From Thiotrichaceae bacterium (GTDB lineage: Bacteria; Pseudomonadota; Gammaproteobacteria; Beggiatoales; Beggiatoaceae), in assembly GCA_016745055.1 (NCBI GenBank), contig JADGDF010000010.1, positions 1 through 48,678 on the forward strand: a DNA stretch of 48,678 nt, given 5' to 3'. Positions 29,746 through 37,060 of the stretch are shown in pieces (positions within the stretch are counted from its first letter, which is position 1; each line of letters opens with the position of its first letter). Below the pieces are notes generated by a model. The model did no database searches, was not told the DNA's origin, and saw nothing but the letters and a program-made list of their open reading frames with translations. The translations under genes and the position numbers were made by a program.

Positions 29746-30876
29746 ATGAGAGAGCCACAAACTGATTTTGTGACACGCAGATTAGGTGTGTCGCGCCGTG
29801 ATTTTCTGAAATTTTGCACGGGCATAGCAGCGACAATGGGCTTGCCTGGCAGTGCAGCCTTAAGTTTAGCAGACACCATTGCTAACAGTGCCCAGCAAAA
29901 ACCCGTTGTCATTTGGTTGCATGGCCAAGAATGTACTGGCCCCACCGAAACCCTCCTACGCGCTGAACATCCTACCTTAGAACGACTCATTTTAGACATG
30001 ATTTCCCTGGAATATCACCAAACGTTGGATGCTGGGGCAGGTCATCATGTTGAGCAGGCGAAAGAAAAAGCCATTGCAGCCCACGCAGGTAAATATTTAC
30101 TAGTCATTGAAGGGTCTATTCCCACCAAAGATGGTGGCATCTACTGCAAAATTGCGGATAAAACCATGTTAGCGCATACCCAGGAAGCGGCTGAACATGC
30201 GGGCGCTATTATTGCGTTTGGTTCCTGTGCATCGTGGGGAGGTATACCATCGGCGGGCCCTAATCCAACAGGGGCTAAAGGCGCTTATGAAGTATTGCCA
30301 GGTAAAACCGTGGTCAATATTCCAGGTTGTCCTCCCAATCCTTATAATTTCTTAGCCACTGTGTTGCATTATGTGACCTTTGGTACACTGCCCGAATTGG
30401 ATGAAAAGAATCGTCCTAAATTTGCCTATGGTCGTTTGATTCATGAAAACTGTGAACGGCGTCCACATTTTGATGCGGGTCGTTTTGCCACAGAATTTGG
30501 AGATGAAGGTCATCGTCAGGGTTGGTGTTTGTATAAACTAGGTTGCAAAGGCCCTGAGACTTATGCCAATTGTCCTGCCGTTGAGTTTAATGATGTGGGG
30601 GGTGGGACGTGGCCCATTGGCGTAGGTCATCCGTGTTTTGGTTGTGTTGAAGAAGGTGTCGGTTTTACCAAACCTTTATTTAGTTTATCCACAGTCAAAA
30701 CGCATACTCCACCGAATGCTTTTCCTACCATTGAGCAACGTCAAGGTTCAGTCAAAATGACTGGGGGAGCTGCAGCATTAGCAGGCGCAGCCGTCGGTGC
30801 TGTGTTAGGAGCAACGGGCATAGCAATAGCGGCCAACAAAAAAACAACGTCAGATACGACTGAATCAGATAGTTAG
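29746..30876 (+). CDS. hybO: [NiFe] hydrogenase small subunit, Hyd-2 type (HybO)
   Basis: 376 residues. The Tat signal SRRDFLKFC (about residues 16-24) exports the folded subunit with HybC. Fe-S ligands by alignment with known small subunits: distal cluster His233, Cys236, Cys261, Cys267; medial cluster Cys276, Cys297, Cys300; proximal cluster Cys63, Cys161, Cys195. The fourth proximal ligand, expected in ECTGC, is Pro66 here (ECTGPTE; codon ccc at 29941-29943). A C-terminal hydrophobic helix (~residues 340-362, Ala/Gly-rich) anchors it in the membrane. The gene order small subunit-HybA-HybB-large subunit equals E. coli hybOABC. It carries electrons from the NiFe site toward HybA. Confidence 0.93.
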   Translation: MREPQTDFVTRRLGVSRRDFLKFCTGIAATMGLPGSAALSLADTIANSAQQKPVVIWLHGQECTGPTETLLRAEHPTLERLILDMISLEYHQTLDAGAGHHVEQAKEKAIAAHAGKYLLVIEGSIPTKDGGIYCKIADKTMLAHTQEAAEHAGAIIAFGSCASWGGIPSAGPNPTGAKGAYEVLPGKTVVNIPGCPPNPYNFLATVLHYVTFGTLPELDEKNRPKFAYGRLIHENCERRPHFDAGRFATEFGDEGHRQGWCLYKLGCKGPETYANCPAVEFNDVGGGTWPIGVGHPCFGCVEEGVGFTKPLFSLSTVKTHTPPNAFPTIEQRQGSVKMTGGAAALAGAAVGAVLGATGIAIAANKKTTSDTTESDS

Positions 30877-30887
30877 CGAGGTGGCAG

Positions 30888-31859
30888 ATGAAACGCAGAG
30901 ATTTTCTCAAAGCCACAGGCGCAACGCTTTTAGGAAGTGCAAGTTCGGTTGCGCAGGCTCGACCTAATTTAGAACCTGCACCAGAAGCTGTCGGCATGCT
31001 ATTTGACTCAACCTTGTGTGTTGGGTGCAAAGCCTGTGTCAGTAAGTGCAAAGAAGTCAATGGAATGCCTCCCGTGATTGAAGGTGATGCGGTTCAGTAT
31101 GATTCCGCGCGTGATTTATCGGGTGACACCTTAAATGTCATCAAGCTGTATCAAAATGGCCAGGCCAATCAAAAAGATCAGGAAGTTGATGGCTTCTGTT
31201 TTGAAAAACGCAGCTGTATGCACTGTGTTGATCCTGGTTGTGTCTCAGTCTGCCCTGTGACTGCGTTGCGCAGACATCCCAAAACTGGCATTATCAGTTA
31301 TCACGTCGATGCTTGCATTGGTTGTCGCAATTGCACCATGGGCTGTCCTTACAACGTCCCTCAATTTGAATACGACAATCCCTTTGGCCAAATCCGTAAA
31401 TGTGAAATGTGCAACCAAGCGGGTGTTGAGCGCATTGATCAAGGACAAATGACCGGTTGTGCAGAAGCGTGTCCTACGGGCGCAACGCTGTTTGGGACAC
31501 GTAATGAATTATTAATTGAAGCCAAACGCCGTTTAACCCTAAAACCGGGTGATATTTACAATTATCCCTGCGGTGATGTGAATCATCCCGACAGTTGGCA
31601 TGAACAGGAAGTTGCGGCTTATCAACCCCATATTTGGGGTGAAAAAGAAGCGGGAGGTACTAATGTATTGCACTTATCGGCTGTCCCGTTCGATAAATTA
31701 GGCATGCCACCGTTACCTGAGCGCTCTTATGCCTCCATTTCAGAAGGGGTACAACATACCTTATACAGTTATTTAGCCCTACCCGCAGCTGCTTTAGTAG
31801 GACTCTCTTACGTCGTGCACCGTAACACCCGCGACTCGGAAGGAGACTCTGATGAGTAA
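30888..31859 (+). CDS. hybA: Hydrogenase-2 electron-transfer ferredoxin subunit (HybA)
   Basis: 323 residues. It starts with a Tat signal (MKRRDFLKATGATLLG), then carries four [4Fe-4S] motifs: Cys44-47-50-54 (LCVGCKACVSKC), CMHCVDPGCVSVCP, CIGCRNCTMGCP and CEMC...GCAEACPTGA. A C-terminal transmembrane helix (LALPAAALVGLSYVV) anchors it on the periplasmic face. It passes electrons from HybO to HybB. GAGGTGGC precedes the ATG. The start follows the hybO stop by 11 nt, and the end overlaps hybB by 8 nt, so the four genes form one operon. Confidence 0.94.
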   Translation: MKRRDFLKATGATLLGSASSVAQARPNLEPAPEAVGMLFDSTLCVGCKACVSKCKEVNGMPPVIEGDAVQYDSARDLSGDTLNVIKLYQNGQANQKDQEVDGFCFEKRSCMHCVDPGCVSVCPVTALRRHPKTGIISYHVDACIGCRNCTMGCPYNVPQFEYDNPFGQIRKCEMCNQAGVERIDQGQMTGCAEACPTGATLFGTRNELLIEAKRRLTLKPGDIYNYPCGDVNHPDSWHEQEVAAYQPHIWGEKEAGGTNVLHLSAVPFDKLGMPPLPERSYASISEGVQHTLYSYLALPAAALVGLSYVVHRNTRDSEGDSDE

Positions 31860-33000
31860 TTATCAACCTACAGGTGGACGTTTGCTAACATTGCCCGTAG
31901 TGCTGCTTGCGGTCATTGCTGGCATTGGATTGTACTACCTTGGCCTACGTTTTGTTCATGGTTTAGGTGCGGTTACCCAACTTAATGGCGCGCATGCTTG
32001 GGGCATTTGGGTCGTTTATGATGTGGTCATTGGCACTGCTTTAGCCTGTGGCGGTTATGCGTTGGCCATTACCGTGTACGTACTGAACAAAGGTCAATAT
32101 CATCCTTTGATGCGAGGAGCACTCACTGCAAGCTTATTTGGTTATGCCCTGGGTGGATTGGGAGCATTTGTTGACATGGGTCGCTGGTGGGCATTTTACA
32201 ATATATTCCTGCCTTGGAACATGAATTTTAATTCCGTGATGTTAGAAGTTGGCCTCTGTGTCAGTGCCTACATTTTGGTATTGTTTATCGAATTTTCTCC
32301 AGTGTTATTCGATAAAATGGGCGCTCAAAAACTACGTAATGCCCTCAACAAGGTATTATTTTTATTCATTGCCTTGGGGGTGTTATTGCCTACCATGCAC
32401 CAATCTTCCTTAGGGTCTTTATTAATTGCTATGGGTTACAAAGTGGCGCCTTTATGGCAATCTTTGCACTTACAGCCCCTACTTGCTTTATTAACAGCCT
32501 TAACCATGGGATTCTCCATTGTCATTTTTGAGGCTTCTTTGGTCAATAGTGCTTTTCGTCGACACGAAGAAACACCTTTATTATCAGGACTTGGCAAAGC
32601 GATTGTCGGTTTATTAACCGTCTATTTAGTCATACGCTTTGTTGAAATTATCCTGCGTGACAAATTGGGATTGGTGTTGGCGTTTGATATGAATAGCGTA
32701 TTATTCTTGTTAGAAACAGCCCTATTTGTATTACCGCTAATCGTGTTACTTTCTCCCGCTAAACGGCGCAATGGTCGCTGGTTGCTCACAGCCGCACTAT
32801 CAATGTTACTGGCAGGCACACTGTACCGATTTAACGCATTTTTATTCACATTTAATCCAGGCCCAGGTTACAGTTATTTCCCTTCAGCACCAGAAGTTAT
32901 GGTCACGATTGGCATTATTGCTCTAGAAATCTTGGTATATCTTTTATTTGTGAAAATCCTCCCGATTTTGCCTGTAGAAGAAAAACAACAGTCCCATTGA
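31852..33000 (+). CDS. hybB: Hydrogenase-2 membrane subunit, NrfD family (HybB)
   Basis: 382 residues, about 10 membrane helices. NrfD/PsrC family features: LNGAHAWGIWVVYDV near the start (quinone-proximal helix), ALACGGYALAITVYV and RGALTASLFGYALGG. It contains no heme or cluster motif, and is the quinone-reducing (or proton-translocating) integral subunit linking periplasmic H2 oxidation to the quinone pool. GGAGACTCTG precedes the ATG inside hybA. It ends in TGA, 19 nt before hybC. Confidence 0.94.
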   Translation: MSNYQPTGGRLLTLPVVLLAVIAGIGLYYLGLRFVHGLGAVTQLNGAHAWGIWVVYDVVIGTALACGGYALAITVYVLNKGQYHPLMRGALTASLFGYALGGLGAFVDMGRWWAFYNIFLPWNMNFNSVMLEVGLCVSAYILVLFIEFSPVLFDKMGAQKLRNALNKVLFLFIALGVLLPTMHQSSLGSLLIAMGYKVAPLWQSLHLQPLLALLTALTMGFSIVIFEASLVNSAFRRHEETPLLSGLGKAIVGLLTVYLVIRFVEIILRDKLGLVLAFDMNSVLFLLETALFVLPLIVLLSPAKRRNGRWLLTAALSMLLAGTLYRFNAFLFTFNPGPGYSYFPSAPEVMVTIGIIALEILVYLLFVKILPILPVEEKQQSH

Positions 33001-33019
33001 GCACTAGGAGTGATGGCAT

Positions 33020-34723
33020 ATGGCAAAACGAATTACAATTGACCCAGTGACACGCATTGAAGGTCACCTGCGCATAGATGTTGAAACTGATAATGGTAAA
33101 GTCACCAAAGCTTGGTCTTCTGGGCAAATGTGGCGCGGTATTGAAACGATTTTGGTCGGACGTGATCCTAGAGAAGCCTGGATATTCGCGCAACGTTTCT
33201 GTGGTGTCTGTACCACAGTACATGCCATTACCTCGGTACGCACCGTCGAAAATGCTTTGGGATTGGAAGTACCCGTCAACGCACAATTAATCCGTAATAT
33301 TATTCAAACCGCGCATGCAATCCAAGATCATATTGTCCATTTTTACCACTTATCCGCAGTAGACTGGGTGGACGTAGTCTCTGCATTGGATGCTGATCCT
33401 AAAAAAGCCGCACAATTGGCAGAAAGTTTATCCGACTGGTCTTTAAATGGCCCACATGAAATGAAAGCGGTGCAGGAACGCTTAAAAACTTTTGTGCACG
33501 GTGGACAACTTGGCCCCTTTGCCACGGGGTATTGGGGACATCCGGCGATGAAATTATCGCCCGAAGTCAACCTCATGGCAGTGGCACATTATCTTCAAGC
33601 ATTAACCGTGCAAAATTATGCCAACAAAATTGTGGCCATTTTAGGGGGTAAATCACCACATATTCAAAATATGGCTGTCGGAGGCGTTAGCAACTCCATC
33701 AACTTGGACAGCCAATCCGTTCTGAATATGGAACGGTTAATGATGATTAAAGGTTGGATTGATAAATTAGAACATTTCGTCAAATCGGTGTACTTGGTCG
33801 ACGTTCCCGCGATTGCCGCATTTTATCTGGACTGGACACAGTATGGTGCTGGGGTTACCAATTATTTATCCGTTCCTGATTGTCCTCAAGACAGCAAAGG
33901 TACCGTGTTTGATTTGCCCGGGGGCTACATTGAAAATGCTGACCTAAGTACTTTTAAACCAATTAATACGCATGGCGACGATTATTTCCGTCAAGGCGTA
34001 ACAGAAAGTTCCAAACATGCCTGGTATACGGGAGAAGATGCGTTACATCCTTGGAATGGTACGACTGACCCGCAATACACAAATTTTCAAGATCAGGGGA
34101 GTTATTCTTGGATTAAAGCCCCTACGTTTTACGGTAAACGTGCGCAAGTGGGACCTTTAGCCAATGTGCTAGTTATGATGGCTGCCGGTCATGAACCAAC
34201 CAAAAAATACTTAAATCAAGCATTAGATACCTTAAAAACCATTTCAGGACAGAGTGATATTCCTTTAACTGCCTTACATTCCACGATTGGTCGTTATGCC
34301 GCGAGAGCAGTGCGTTGTGGGGTGATGATGGACACCTTGAAACAACAATGGCAAAAGCTGGTTGATAATATTGGGTCAGGGGATACAGATACCTTTAATT
34401 CTCCTCAGTTTCCCAAAGGTGAAATTCGAGGCTTTGGTTTCCATGAAGCACCCCGAGGGGCTTTATCTCATTGGGTAGTGATTGAAGACGGTAAAATTAA
34501 AAACTACCAAGCGGTTGTGCCTTCGACTTGGAATGCAGGCCCTCGTGATCAAAATGATATAGCGGGACCTTACGAGGCATCACTAGTAGACAACCCCATC
34601 GCTGATCCTGAACGCCCTTTGGAAGTCTTGCGTACTGTTCACTCCTTTGATCCTTGTATTGCTTGCGCAATTCATTTATTAGATACAGAAAATCAAGAAA
34701 TTATTAAAGTGAAAGCGCTTTGA
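33020..34723 (+). CDS. hybC: [NiFe] hydrogenase large subunit, Hyd-2 type (HybC)
   Basis: 567 residues; AGGAG precedes the ATG. It holds the NiFe(CN)2CO site. The L1 motif is RFCGVCTTVH (Cys61, Cys64, His68) and the L2 motif is DPCIACAIH (Cys546, Cys549, His552). Fifteen residues after His552 (LLDTENQEIIKVKAL) match the peptide removed by the HybD-type maturation protease, so the protein is made as a precursor. The subunit has no signal of its own and is carried through Tat by HybO. No hybD or hyp maturation genes are in the window; they must be elsewhere. It ends in TGA. Confidence 0.95.
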   Translation: MAKRITIDPVTRIEGHLRIDVETDNGKVTKAWSSGQMWRGIETILVGRDPREAWIFAQRFCGVCTTVHAITSVRTVENALGLEVPVNAQLIRNIIQTAHAIQDHIVHFYHLSAVDWVDVVSALDADPKKAAQLAESLSDWSLNGPHEMKAVQERLKTFVHGGQLGPFATGYWGHPAMKLSPEVNLMAVAHYLQALTVQNYANKIVAILGGKSPHIQNMAVGGVSNSINLDSQSVLNMERLMMIKGWIDKLEHFVKSVYLVDVPAIAAFYLDWTQYGAGVTNYLSVPDCPQDSKGTVFDLPGGYIENADLSTFKPINTHGDDYFRQGVTESSKHAWYTGEDALHPWNGTTDPQYTNFQDQGSYSWIKAPTFYGKRAQVGPLANVLVMMAAGHEPTKKYLNQALDTLKTISGQSDIPLTALHSTIGRYAARAVRCGVMMDTLKQQWQKLVDNIGSGDTDTFNSPQFPKGEIRGFGFHEAPRGALSHWVVIEDGKIKNYQAVVPSTWNAGPRDQNDIAGPYEASLVDNPIADPERPLEVLRTVHSFDPCIACAIHLLDTENQEIIKVKAL

Positions 34724-35141: not shown

Positions 35142-35735
35142 ATGACGTTAAAAGTAGCAAAGTACGCCCTGTTAATAAGTGGACTTGCATTAAGTAGTTC
35201 ACTTTTAGCAGATGAAATGGCACCTATGTTAGCGCAAACTTGCGTAGGTTGTCATGGACCCAACGGTTCAAGTGTTGGGCCTGCCACGCCAAGCATTGCA
35301 GGCACAGAAGAAGAAACATTTGTCGAATCTATGCAGGCTTATAAAAACGGTGACCGTCCCTCAACAATTATGGCGCGTATTGCAAAAGGCTATACAGATG
35401 AGGACTTTGTAGTCATGGCTAAGTATTTTTCTAGCCAAGAATTTATCCGTTATCCTCAAGAGACTGACAAGACTAAAGCTAATCGTGGTGAAAAATTACA
35501 TGATAAATACTGCGATAAGTGTCATGAAGACAATGGTTTTAAAGACGAGGATGGCTCTTCCATTTTAGCAGGCCAATGGCTACCTTATTTGCAATATAGC
35601 TTAGCTGACTACCATTCTGGCGAACGTGAAGCCACCAAAAAAATGCGTAAACGTATGAAAAAGATGGTTAAATCAGCAGGCGAAGGTAGTCTGGATGATG
35701 TCGCTCATTTTTATGCAAGCCAAACCAAGAAATAG
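35142..35735 (+). CDS. fccA: Diheme cytochrome c subunit of flavocytochrome c sulfide dehydrogenase
   Basis: 197 residues with a cleavable signal peptide (…LALSSSLLA). Two class I c-type heme sites: Cys34-x-x-Cys37-His38 ([10 protein letters not shown]) and Cys124-x-x-Cys127-His128 ([10 protein letters not shown]). Each half ends with a Met-containing segment of the cytochrome c4 type. The diheme form corresponds to the 21-kDa subunit of Allochromatium FccAB. It accepts electrons from FccB in the periplasm and passes them to cytochrome c. AAGGAG precedes the ATG by 7 nt; fccB follows after 17 nt, so the pair is an operon. Confidence 0.9.
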
Positions 35736-35752
35736 GATGGAGGAAAACAAAT

Positions 35753-37060
35753 ATGCCAATGAATCGTAGAAGTTTTATCAAAATAGCGGCTGGTACTACT
35801 GCTGCCGCAAGTGCGATGAGTTTTCCCTACATTGCCTATGGCGCTTCTAAAAAAGTCGTGGTTGTAGGTGGTGGTGTCGGCGGGGCAACTGCTGCAAAGT
35901 ATATTGCAATGGCTGATCCTTCTATTGAAATTACCTTGATTGAGCCTAATCAAAATTACTTCACTTGTTTTATGAGCAATGAAGTATTAAGTGGTGATCG
36001 CACCTTAGATTCTATCAAATTTGGTTATGAGGGTTTGAGTAAAGCGGGTATAAAAGTCATCACCGATTCTGCAACAGGTATTGATCCGGACAAAAAAACC
36101 GTGACAACCGCAGGTGGCCAAACCTTTAGTTATGACAAACTTGTTGTGTCTCCAGGTGTATCTCTTGATTTCACTGCGATTGAAGGCTATGACGAAAAAG
36201 CAGCTGAAATTATGCCTCACGCTTGGAAAGCAGGTCCACAAACTGCGTTATTACGTAAACAACTTGAAGATATGAAAGACGGTGGCACCGTTATTATTGC
36301 ATCACCGCCCAACCCTTTCCGTTGTCCTCCTGGACCTTATGAGAGAGCTAGCCAAATTGCTCATTATCTGCAAGCCAATAAACCTAAGTCCAAAATTTTG
36401 ATTTTGGATGCTAAACCTAAATTTTCCAAACAAGGTTTATTTACCCAAGGTTGGAAAGATTTATACGGGTATGGCACTGACAACAGCCTAATTGAATGGG
36501 TTGCTGGTGGCGAAGGTGGTAGTGGTAACGTAACTGCAGTAGACGTTAAATCAATGACCGTAACTGCAGGTGAGTTGGACGACGAACACAAAGGTGATGT
36601 CATCAACGTTATTCCACCGCAAAAAGCAGGAAAAATTGCTTCTGTTGCGGGATTAGCTGATAAATCGGGCTGGTGCCCCATTAATAAGAAGACTTTTGAG
36701 TCTACTTTACAAAAAGACATCCATGTCATTGGCGATGCGGCTATTGCAACCAAAATGCCTAAATCTGCCTATGCAGCTAATTCTCAAGCAAAAGTATGTG
36801 CTACTGCAATTGTTGCAGCTTTACAAGGTAAAGAGATGGTTGATCCTTCTTATATTAATACTTGTTATAGTATTGTTGGTAAGGATTACGGCATTTCTGT
36901 CGCAGCCGTCTATCGCTATAATGGTGACAAAGACTTAATTGCGCCTGTTAAAGGCTCTGGTGGCTTAACGCCCATGGATGCAAGACCTGAAGACAGAAAA
37001 CGTGAAGTACAGTATGCCTACAGTTGGTTCCAAAATATCACTACTGATATTTTTGGCTAA
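35753..37060 (+). CDS. fccB: Sulfide dehydrogenase flavoprotein subunit (FccB)
   Basis: 435 residues. Tat signal [19 protein letters not shown], then the FAD-binding loop [17 protein letters not shown]. Cys72 in [10 protein letters not shown] corresponds to the Cys that binds FAD covalently in Allochromatium. The redox-active Cys pair that attacks sulfide is represented by Cys191 ([12 protein letters not shown]) and Cys371 (INTCYSIVG). The C-terminal FCSD domain is complete (…[15 protein letters not shown]). It oxidises sulfide to sulfur or polysulfide in the periplasm and reduces FccA. GGAGG lies 8 nt before the ATG. A strong terminator follows. Confidence 0.94.

Follow-up and report, generated by a model that had tools for sequence, protein, structure and literature searches.

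The window analysed here, i.e. the whole stretch of 48,678 nucleotides from a Thiotrichaceae bacterium, encodes a Hyb-type [NiFe] hydrogenase whose small subunit has a proline (Pro66) in place of the second cysteine of the proximal-cluster motif (CxxC changed to CxxP), a replacement conserved throughout a clade of natural enzymes. The best explanation, with a probability of roughly 55%, is a working uptake hydrogenase of group 1c type (Hyb) with a proximal [3Fe-4S] cluster carried by three cysteines. Situated beside the NiFe site, the proximal cluster acts as the electron gate and has a strong effect on oxygen response and catalytic bias. The natural variants known so far gain cysteines at this place (O2-tolerant MBH) or use Asp or Asn. 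A clade with a conserved proline, whose side chain is unable to bind iron, represents a natural test of the purpose of the fourth ligand.

The small-subunit gene hybO (29746..30876, forward strand) opens the operon hybO-hybA-hybB-hybC (29746-34723), the genes of which are recognised by NCBIfam. Translation of 29746-30876 gives a protein of 376 aa with a TAT signal, three Fe-S cluster sites and a C-terminal membrane anchor (domains PF01058 and PF14720). On the same strand follow hybA for a ferredoxin-like electron carrier subunit (30888..31859; PRK10882, 449 bits, above the cut-off of 263), hybB for an NrfD-like membrane subunit (31852..33000; PRK10881, 518 bits, above the cut-off of 450) and hybC for the large subunit (33020..34723). 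HybC contains the four cysteine ligands of the NiFe site in two CxxC motifs (C61, C64, C546 and C549), as expected of a catalytic [NiFe] hydrogenase, and hypD was found in the window's genome. The best PDB match of HybO is 5xvb, a Hyd-2-type small subunit (E 1.6e-134); Hyd-2-type enzymes are its nearest solved structures, and the residue-66 column is Cys in the alignments shown. HybO passes the subfamily model TIGR00391 (458 bits, cut-off 179.5) but stays below the strict E. coli-type equivalog PRK10468 (529 bits, cut-off 659), as does HybC with PRK10467 (896 bits, cut-off 969). Judged by these strict cut-offs, the window enzyme is a sister lineage and not an enterobacterial orthologue. Since Pro66 leaves the protein without the four cysteines of a standard proximal [4Fe-4S] site, the enzyme is classed, on its residues, as a variant lineage beside Hyb instead of a standard member. 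It has in common with E. coli hydrogenase-2 (HybOABC, group 1c) the O-A-B-C order, the other ligands and the medial proline, whereas E. coli Hyd-2 has ECTGC and a proximal [4Fe-4S] cluster, the residues Pro66, Gln92 and Asp95 being peculiar to the Pro66 clade. Directly 3′ of the operon, the region 35142-37060 encodes a cytochrome c and the flavoprotein of a flavocytochrome c sulfide dehydrogenase (FCSD); an FCSD near the operon was not seen in the other Pro66 loci examined.

HybO contains VVIWLHGQECTGPTETLLRAEHP, in which residue 66 is Pro (proximal motif ECTGP), and its residues 57-72 are WLHGQECTGPTETLLR. The codon is CCC (29941..29943, forward strand), at least two base changes away from a cysteine codon (TGC/TGT), as the original prediction had pointed out. 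The same prediction, made from this DNA alone, had claimed the loss of one proximal cysteine with all remaining ligands intact, and both statements are confirmed. The proximal site retains C63 (codon 29932..29934, forward strand; kept in 27/27 Pro66 members), C161 and C195 (numbering from ATG). The distal ligands H233, C236, C261 and C267 are all present, as are the medial ligands C276, C297 and C300, with the usual Pro290 replacing the fourth medial cysteine. The alignment of homologues that had been proposed as a check reveals Pro66 as the mark of a whole clade and not a peculiarity of one enzyme; in the 80 further HybO homologues without Pro, the residue-66 column is Cys without exception (80/80).

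A similarity search yielded 80 genome loci, two of which share Pro66 with the window, one in a Chromatiales MAG (L003; HybO 77-79% identical to that of the window) and one in a Betaproteobacteria MAG (L010; about 71% identical), both with the codon CCG. A degenerate pattern for CTGP[ST]E.LLR, scanned in the families of these two genomes, was found in 19/194 genomes of the L003 family and in 2/200 of the L010 family, and all 21 matches are HybO. A second pattern accepted any residue with an A/C/G-initial codon at the site, being blind to T-initial codons and to enzymes differing elsewhere in the motif; it matched 5/369 genomes class-wide, from five families, and 4/398 phylum-wide, three of them from a single out-of-class family (f208), again with Pro in every case. 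Because only Pro occurs among the scan matches, within A/C/G-initial codons, one specific replacement has been kept as opposed to a random loss. The set comprises 27 distinct HybO proteins with Pro66, the window's included, the 26 others coming from independently assembled loci; the hosts belong to several gammaproteobacterial families and to one family outside Gammaproteobacteria, and the proline codons are CCC (15, window included), CCG (8) and CCT (4).

Maximum-likelihood trees, built by a quick method from 104 and 59 HybO proteins, group the Pro66 proteins in one clade (SH-aLRT 99 and 100, respectively), and Pro66 has a single origin on these trees. Two genomes from the same family as the window (L083 and L084) have a HybO with Cys66 that is placed elsewhere in the tree, which makes horizontal transfer or differential loss likely. 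Across the clade, neither the NiFe ligands nor the ten remaining cluster ligands vary, and the hybOABC operon is retained. Downstream of it, most members have a gene for a HybE-like chaperone and one for a HybD-like maturation protease. The dN/dS ratio of hybO is low, with a median of 0.11, a rough value because many pairs have saturated synonymous sites. Given one clade, a retained operon and only Pro in the scans, the comparison indicates an old Cys-to-Pro change that purifying selection maintains. It is very likely that the enzyme works, since every ligand apart from residue 66 is invariant, the operon has been retained, in most members together with its protease and chaperone genes, and hypD is present in the window's genome.

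In the proposed mechanism, Pro66 removes the fourth ligand, and the proximal cluster would become a [3Fe-4S] cluster held by C63, C161 and C195. Electrons would then pass from the NiFe site through the proximal [3Fe-4S], the medial [3Fe-4S] and the distal [4Fe-4S] clusters to HybA/HybB and the quinone pool. With a potential above that of the usual [4Fe-4S], the proximal cluster would bias the enzyme towards feeding H2 into a chain of higher potential and away from producing it. We infer cluster type, potentials, oxygen response, direction or bias and physiology alike. The original prediction had offered a [3Fe-4S] cluster or another ligand, which seems the natural reading and fits the precedents. 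One of these lies within the same protein, as the place of the fourth ligand at the medial [3Fe-4S] cluster is taken by Pro290. Pro-to-Cys changes at the medial site produce a [4Fe-4S] cluster, as described for D. fructosovorans P238C (PMC4463661) and for Hyd-1 P242C (PMC4747160). In Huc, the clusters, including the proximal one, are [3Fe-4S] by cryo-EM and EPR, and the potential of [3Fe-4S] clusters is roughly 250 mV higher (PMC10017518). In the A. macleodii hydrogenase, Asp and Asn mutants of the same cysteine (C81) are active and the position is not among the sensitive ones (PMC4070099). Additionally, a designed HupS mutant, C12P, in the same region has an altered proximal cluster and a changed electron flow (PMC9919214, PMC5297734).

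Two observations in HupS temper this reading. In the engineered proximal mutant, electron flow was reportedly reversed and H2 production favoured over uptake (PMC5297734), which leaves the direction predicted for the bias uncertain. In the HupS of N. punctiforme, where proximal position 2 is Asn, EPR still shows two [4Fe-4S] clusters (PMC4463661, PMC4070099), which implies that losing the second proximal cysteine does not force a [3Fe-4S] cluster. Spectroscopy or a structure of any member of the Pro66 clade was not found in the literature searched. The broader proposition, a widespread natural Hyb clade in which a fixed Cys-to-Pro change gives two consecutive high-potential [3Fe-4S] clusters and a shifted working potential, is considered to stand at about even odds. 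If true, the clade would be nature's equivalent of the engineered cluster mutants, and it would reach high-potential operation by a path separate from those of Huc and of the [4Fe-3S] enzymes.

As the main alternative, less probable than the [3Fe-4S] reading, the proximal cluster could still be [4Fe-4S], with its fourth Fe bound by Asp95 or Glu122 of HybO, by His214 of HybC or by water/hydroxide. This alternative draws on residues fixed together with Pro66, in particular Gln92 and Asp95 in HybO codons 92-95 (Gln-Thr-Leu-Asp; 30019..30030, forward strand). Column 92 is Gln in the Pro66 clade and Glu in 78/80 Cys66 relatives, while Asp95 is found in 27/27 Pro66 members and in 0/80 Cys66 relatives. 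Judging from the fold topology, residues 92/95, located after the second flavodoxin-like strand, are expected next to the CxxP loop, which comes after the first strand. Asp95 is a candidate for an alternative ligand or for charge compensation. However, the association of Asp95 with Pro66 is a single phylogenetic data point among many stem changes: about 20 HybO and 45 HybC changes are fixed on the Pro66 stem, and owing to the length of this stem each residue's tie to Pro66 counts once. Other residues fixed in the clade include His59, Gly60, Glu74, Val102, Asn282 and His320 in HybO and are Val21, Ser226, Pro263 and Leu270 in HybC, where Gln102, Asn199 and Cys288 are each present in all Pro66 members but one. 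As for the other potential ligands, Glu122 (codon 30109..30111, forward strand) is Glu in all Pro66 members and Asp or Glu elsewhere; it is regarded as the counterpart of Glu76, which in O2-tolerant enzymes is close to the proximal cluster (PMC3940037). HybC His214, also kept, is taken as the equivalent of Hyd-5 His229, which is 3.3-3.5 A from a proximal-cluster Fe (PMC3940037), and should be near the proximal cluster by homology. The closeness of both equivalents in Hyd-5 speaks for this ligation, but Glu122 and His214 are found in Cys66 enzymes too. A non-Cys ligand is further favoured by the activity of enzymes with non-Cys substitutions at this cysteine (PMC4070099) and by actinobacterial-type small subunits with Asp at column 66 itself, as in L108. 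The AlphaFold model of HybO is too poor for geometry (mean pLDDT 52, below 50 for residues 61-76). The His102-to-Gln change of HybC was rejected as a functional clue, as one Pro66 member retains His and, in Thiocapsa HynL, only the replacement of His104 mattered, HybC residue 102 appearing to align with HynL His102 (PMC3325256).

A degenerate enzyme, or one serving another role, whose proximal cluster is unstable or has been lost, is improbable. Ligand loss can destabilise a cluster, but this is countered by the occurrence of Pro66 in several bacterial families with intact operons, invariant other ligands, low dN/dS and retained maturation genes. Still less credible is a fourth cysteine supplied from elsewhere, which the original prediction had named as an outcome that would count against it. 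HybC Cys288 would be the example, being present in 23/24 Pro66 HybC proteins and in no Cys66 HybC sequence. Yet one Pro66 locus (L174) has Phe288 with an intact HybO and an otherwise intact HybC, so that Cys288 is not an obligatory ligand, and HybO itself has gained no cysteine. A sequencing or assembly error, thought unlikely from the start, is now excluded, as is mere chance, since despite the 356-contig draft assembly behind the window the same residue occurs in 26 independent loci, with three codons, in one clade and partly on contigs as long as a whole chromosome.

Huc of Mycobacterium smegmatis resembles the window enzyme in having a non-Cys residue at the Pro66 column (Asn, in ACSGN), and it has the proximal [3Fe-4S] cluster that is proposed for the window enzyme; it differs by its distant sequence of actinobacterial lineage, by Asn instead of Pro and by a different complex, and the window enzyme does not belong to it. 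In addition, all three Huc clusters are [3Fe-4S], whereas a distal [4Fe-4S] is proposed for the Pro66 clade. The second proximal cysteine is also replaced, by Asp or Asn, in actinobacterial-type (HofK-like) small subunits and in cyanobacterial HupS; these residues are able to coordinate iron, unlike Pro, and the hydrogenase groups differ from that of the window enzyme. Nostoc HupS C12P likewise has a Cys-to-Pro change in the proximal motif, but as a laboratory mutation, while Pro66 is natural and conserved. By its numbering, C12P lies at the first cysteine of the motif and not the second, and the proximal cluster was reportedly converted to [3Fe-4S].

The O2-tolerant MBH (Hyd-1/Hyd-5, ECTCC, [4Fe-3S]) likewise has a changed proximal motif in a related small subunit. 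There cysteines have been gained, whereas the Pro66 clade has lost one, and the six-Cys proximal motif of these enzymes (ECTCC plus Cys120) is lacking in the window HybO. Pro66 has no backbone NH at the place where the Cys20 amide is proposed to bind iron in the O2-tolerant MBH. The O2-tolerant [4Fe-3S] mechanism was rejected for the window enzyme, given ECTGP without an extra proximal cysteine and HybC Gln58, a kept residue that is near the proximal cluster by homology and typical of O2-sensitive enzymes. A survey of natural substitutions gives Asp and Asn at proximal positions, with Pro absent (PMC4070099, Table 1), and nothing on CxxP or ECTGP in hydrogenases was found in the searchable literature; public databases have probably contained Pro66-type sequences for years. 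As whole-chromosome genomes with Pro66 exist, hosts in culture that could serve for direct biochemistry are probably available.

Several genomes contain further [NiFe] small subunits. In the window's own genome, a second one (L002, G000:C233:520-1521) has ECTACTES, with Ala for Gly in CxxC; next to it come a cytochrome b-like subunit and a Cys-rich one (Isp-type), both downstream. The Pro66 operon adjoins an O2-tolerant ECTCC hydrogenase in L153 and L156, and in L010/L155 and L174 a small subunit of H2-sensor-like type, with the motif GGCGGC, is found in its vicinity, so these hosts combine hydrogenases with different expected oxygen responses. A relative in the window's family (L108) has a short actinobacterial-type small subunit with Asp (ACSGDT) at the Pro66 column, and the reading frame downstream looks broken. 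Finally, the genome of L003 contains a further small-subunit gene (L119) with one in-frame TAG, possibly a pseudogene or an assembly error.
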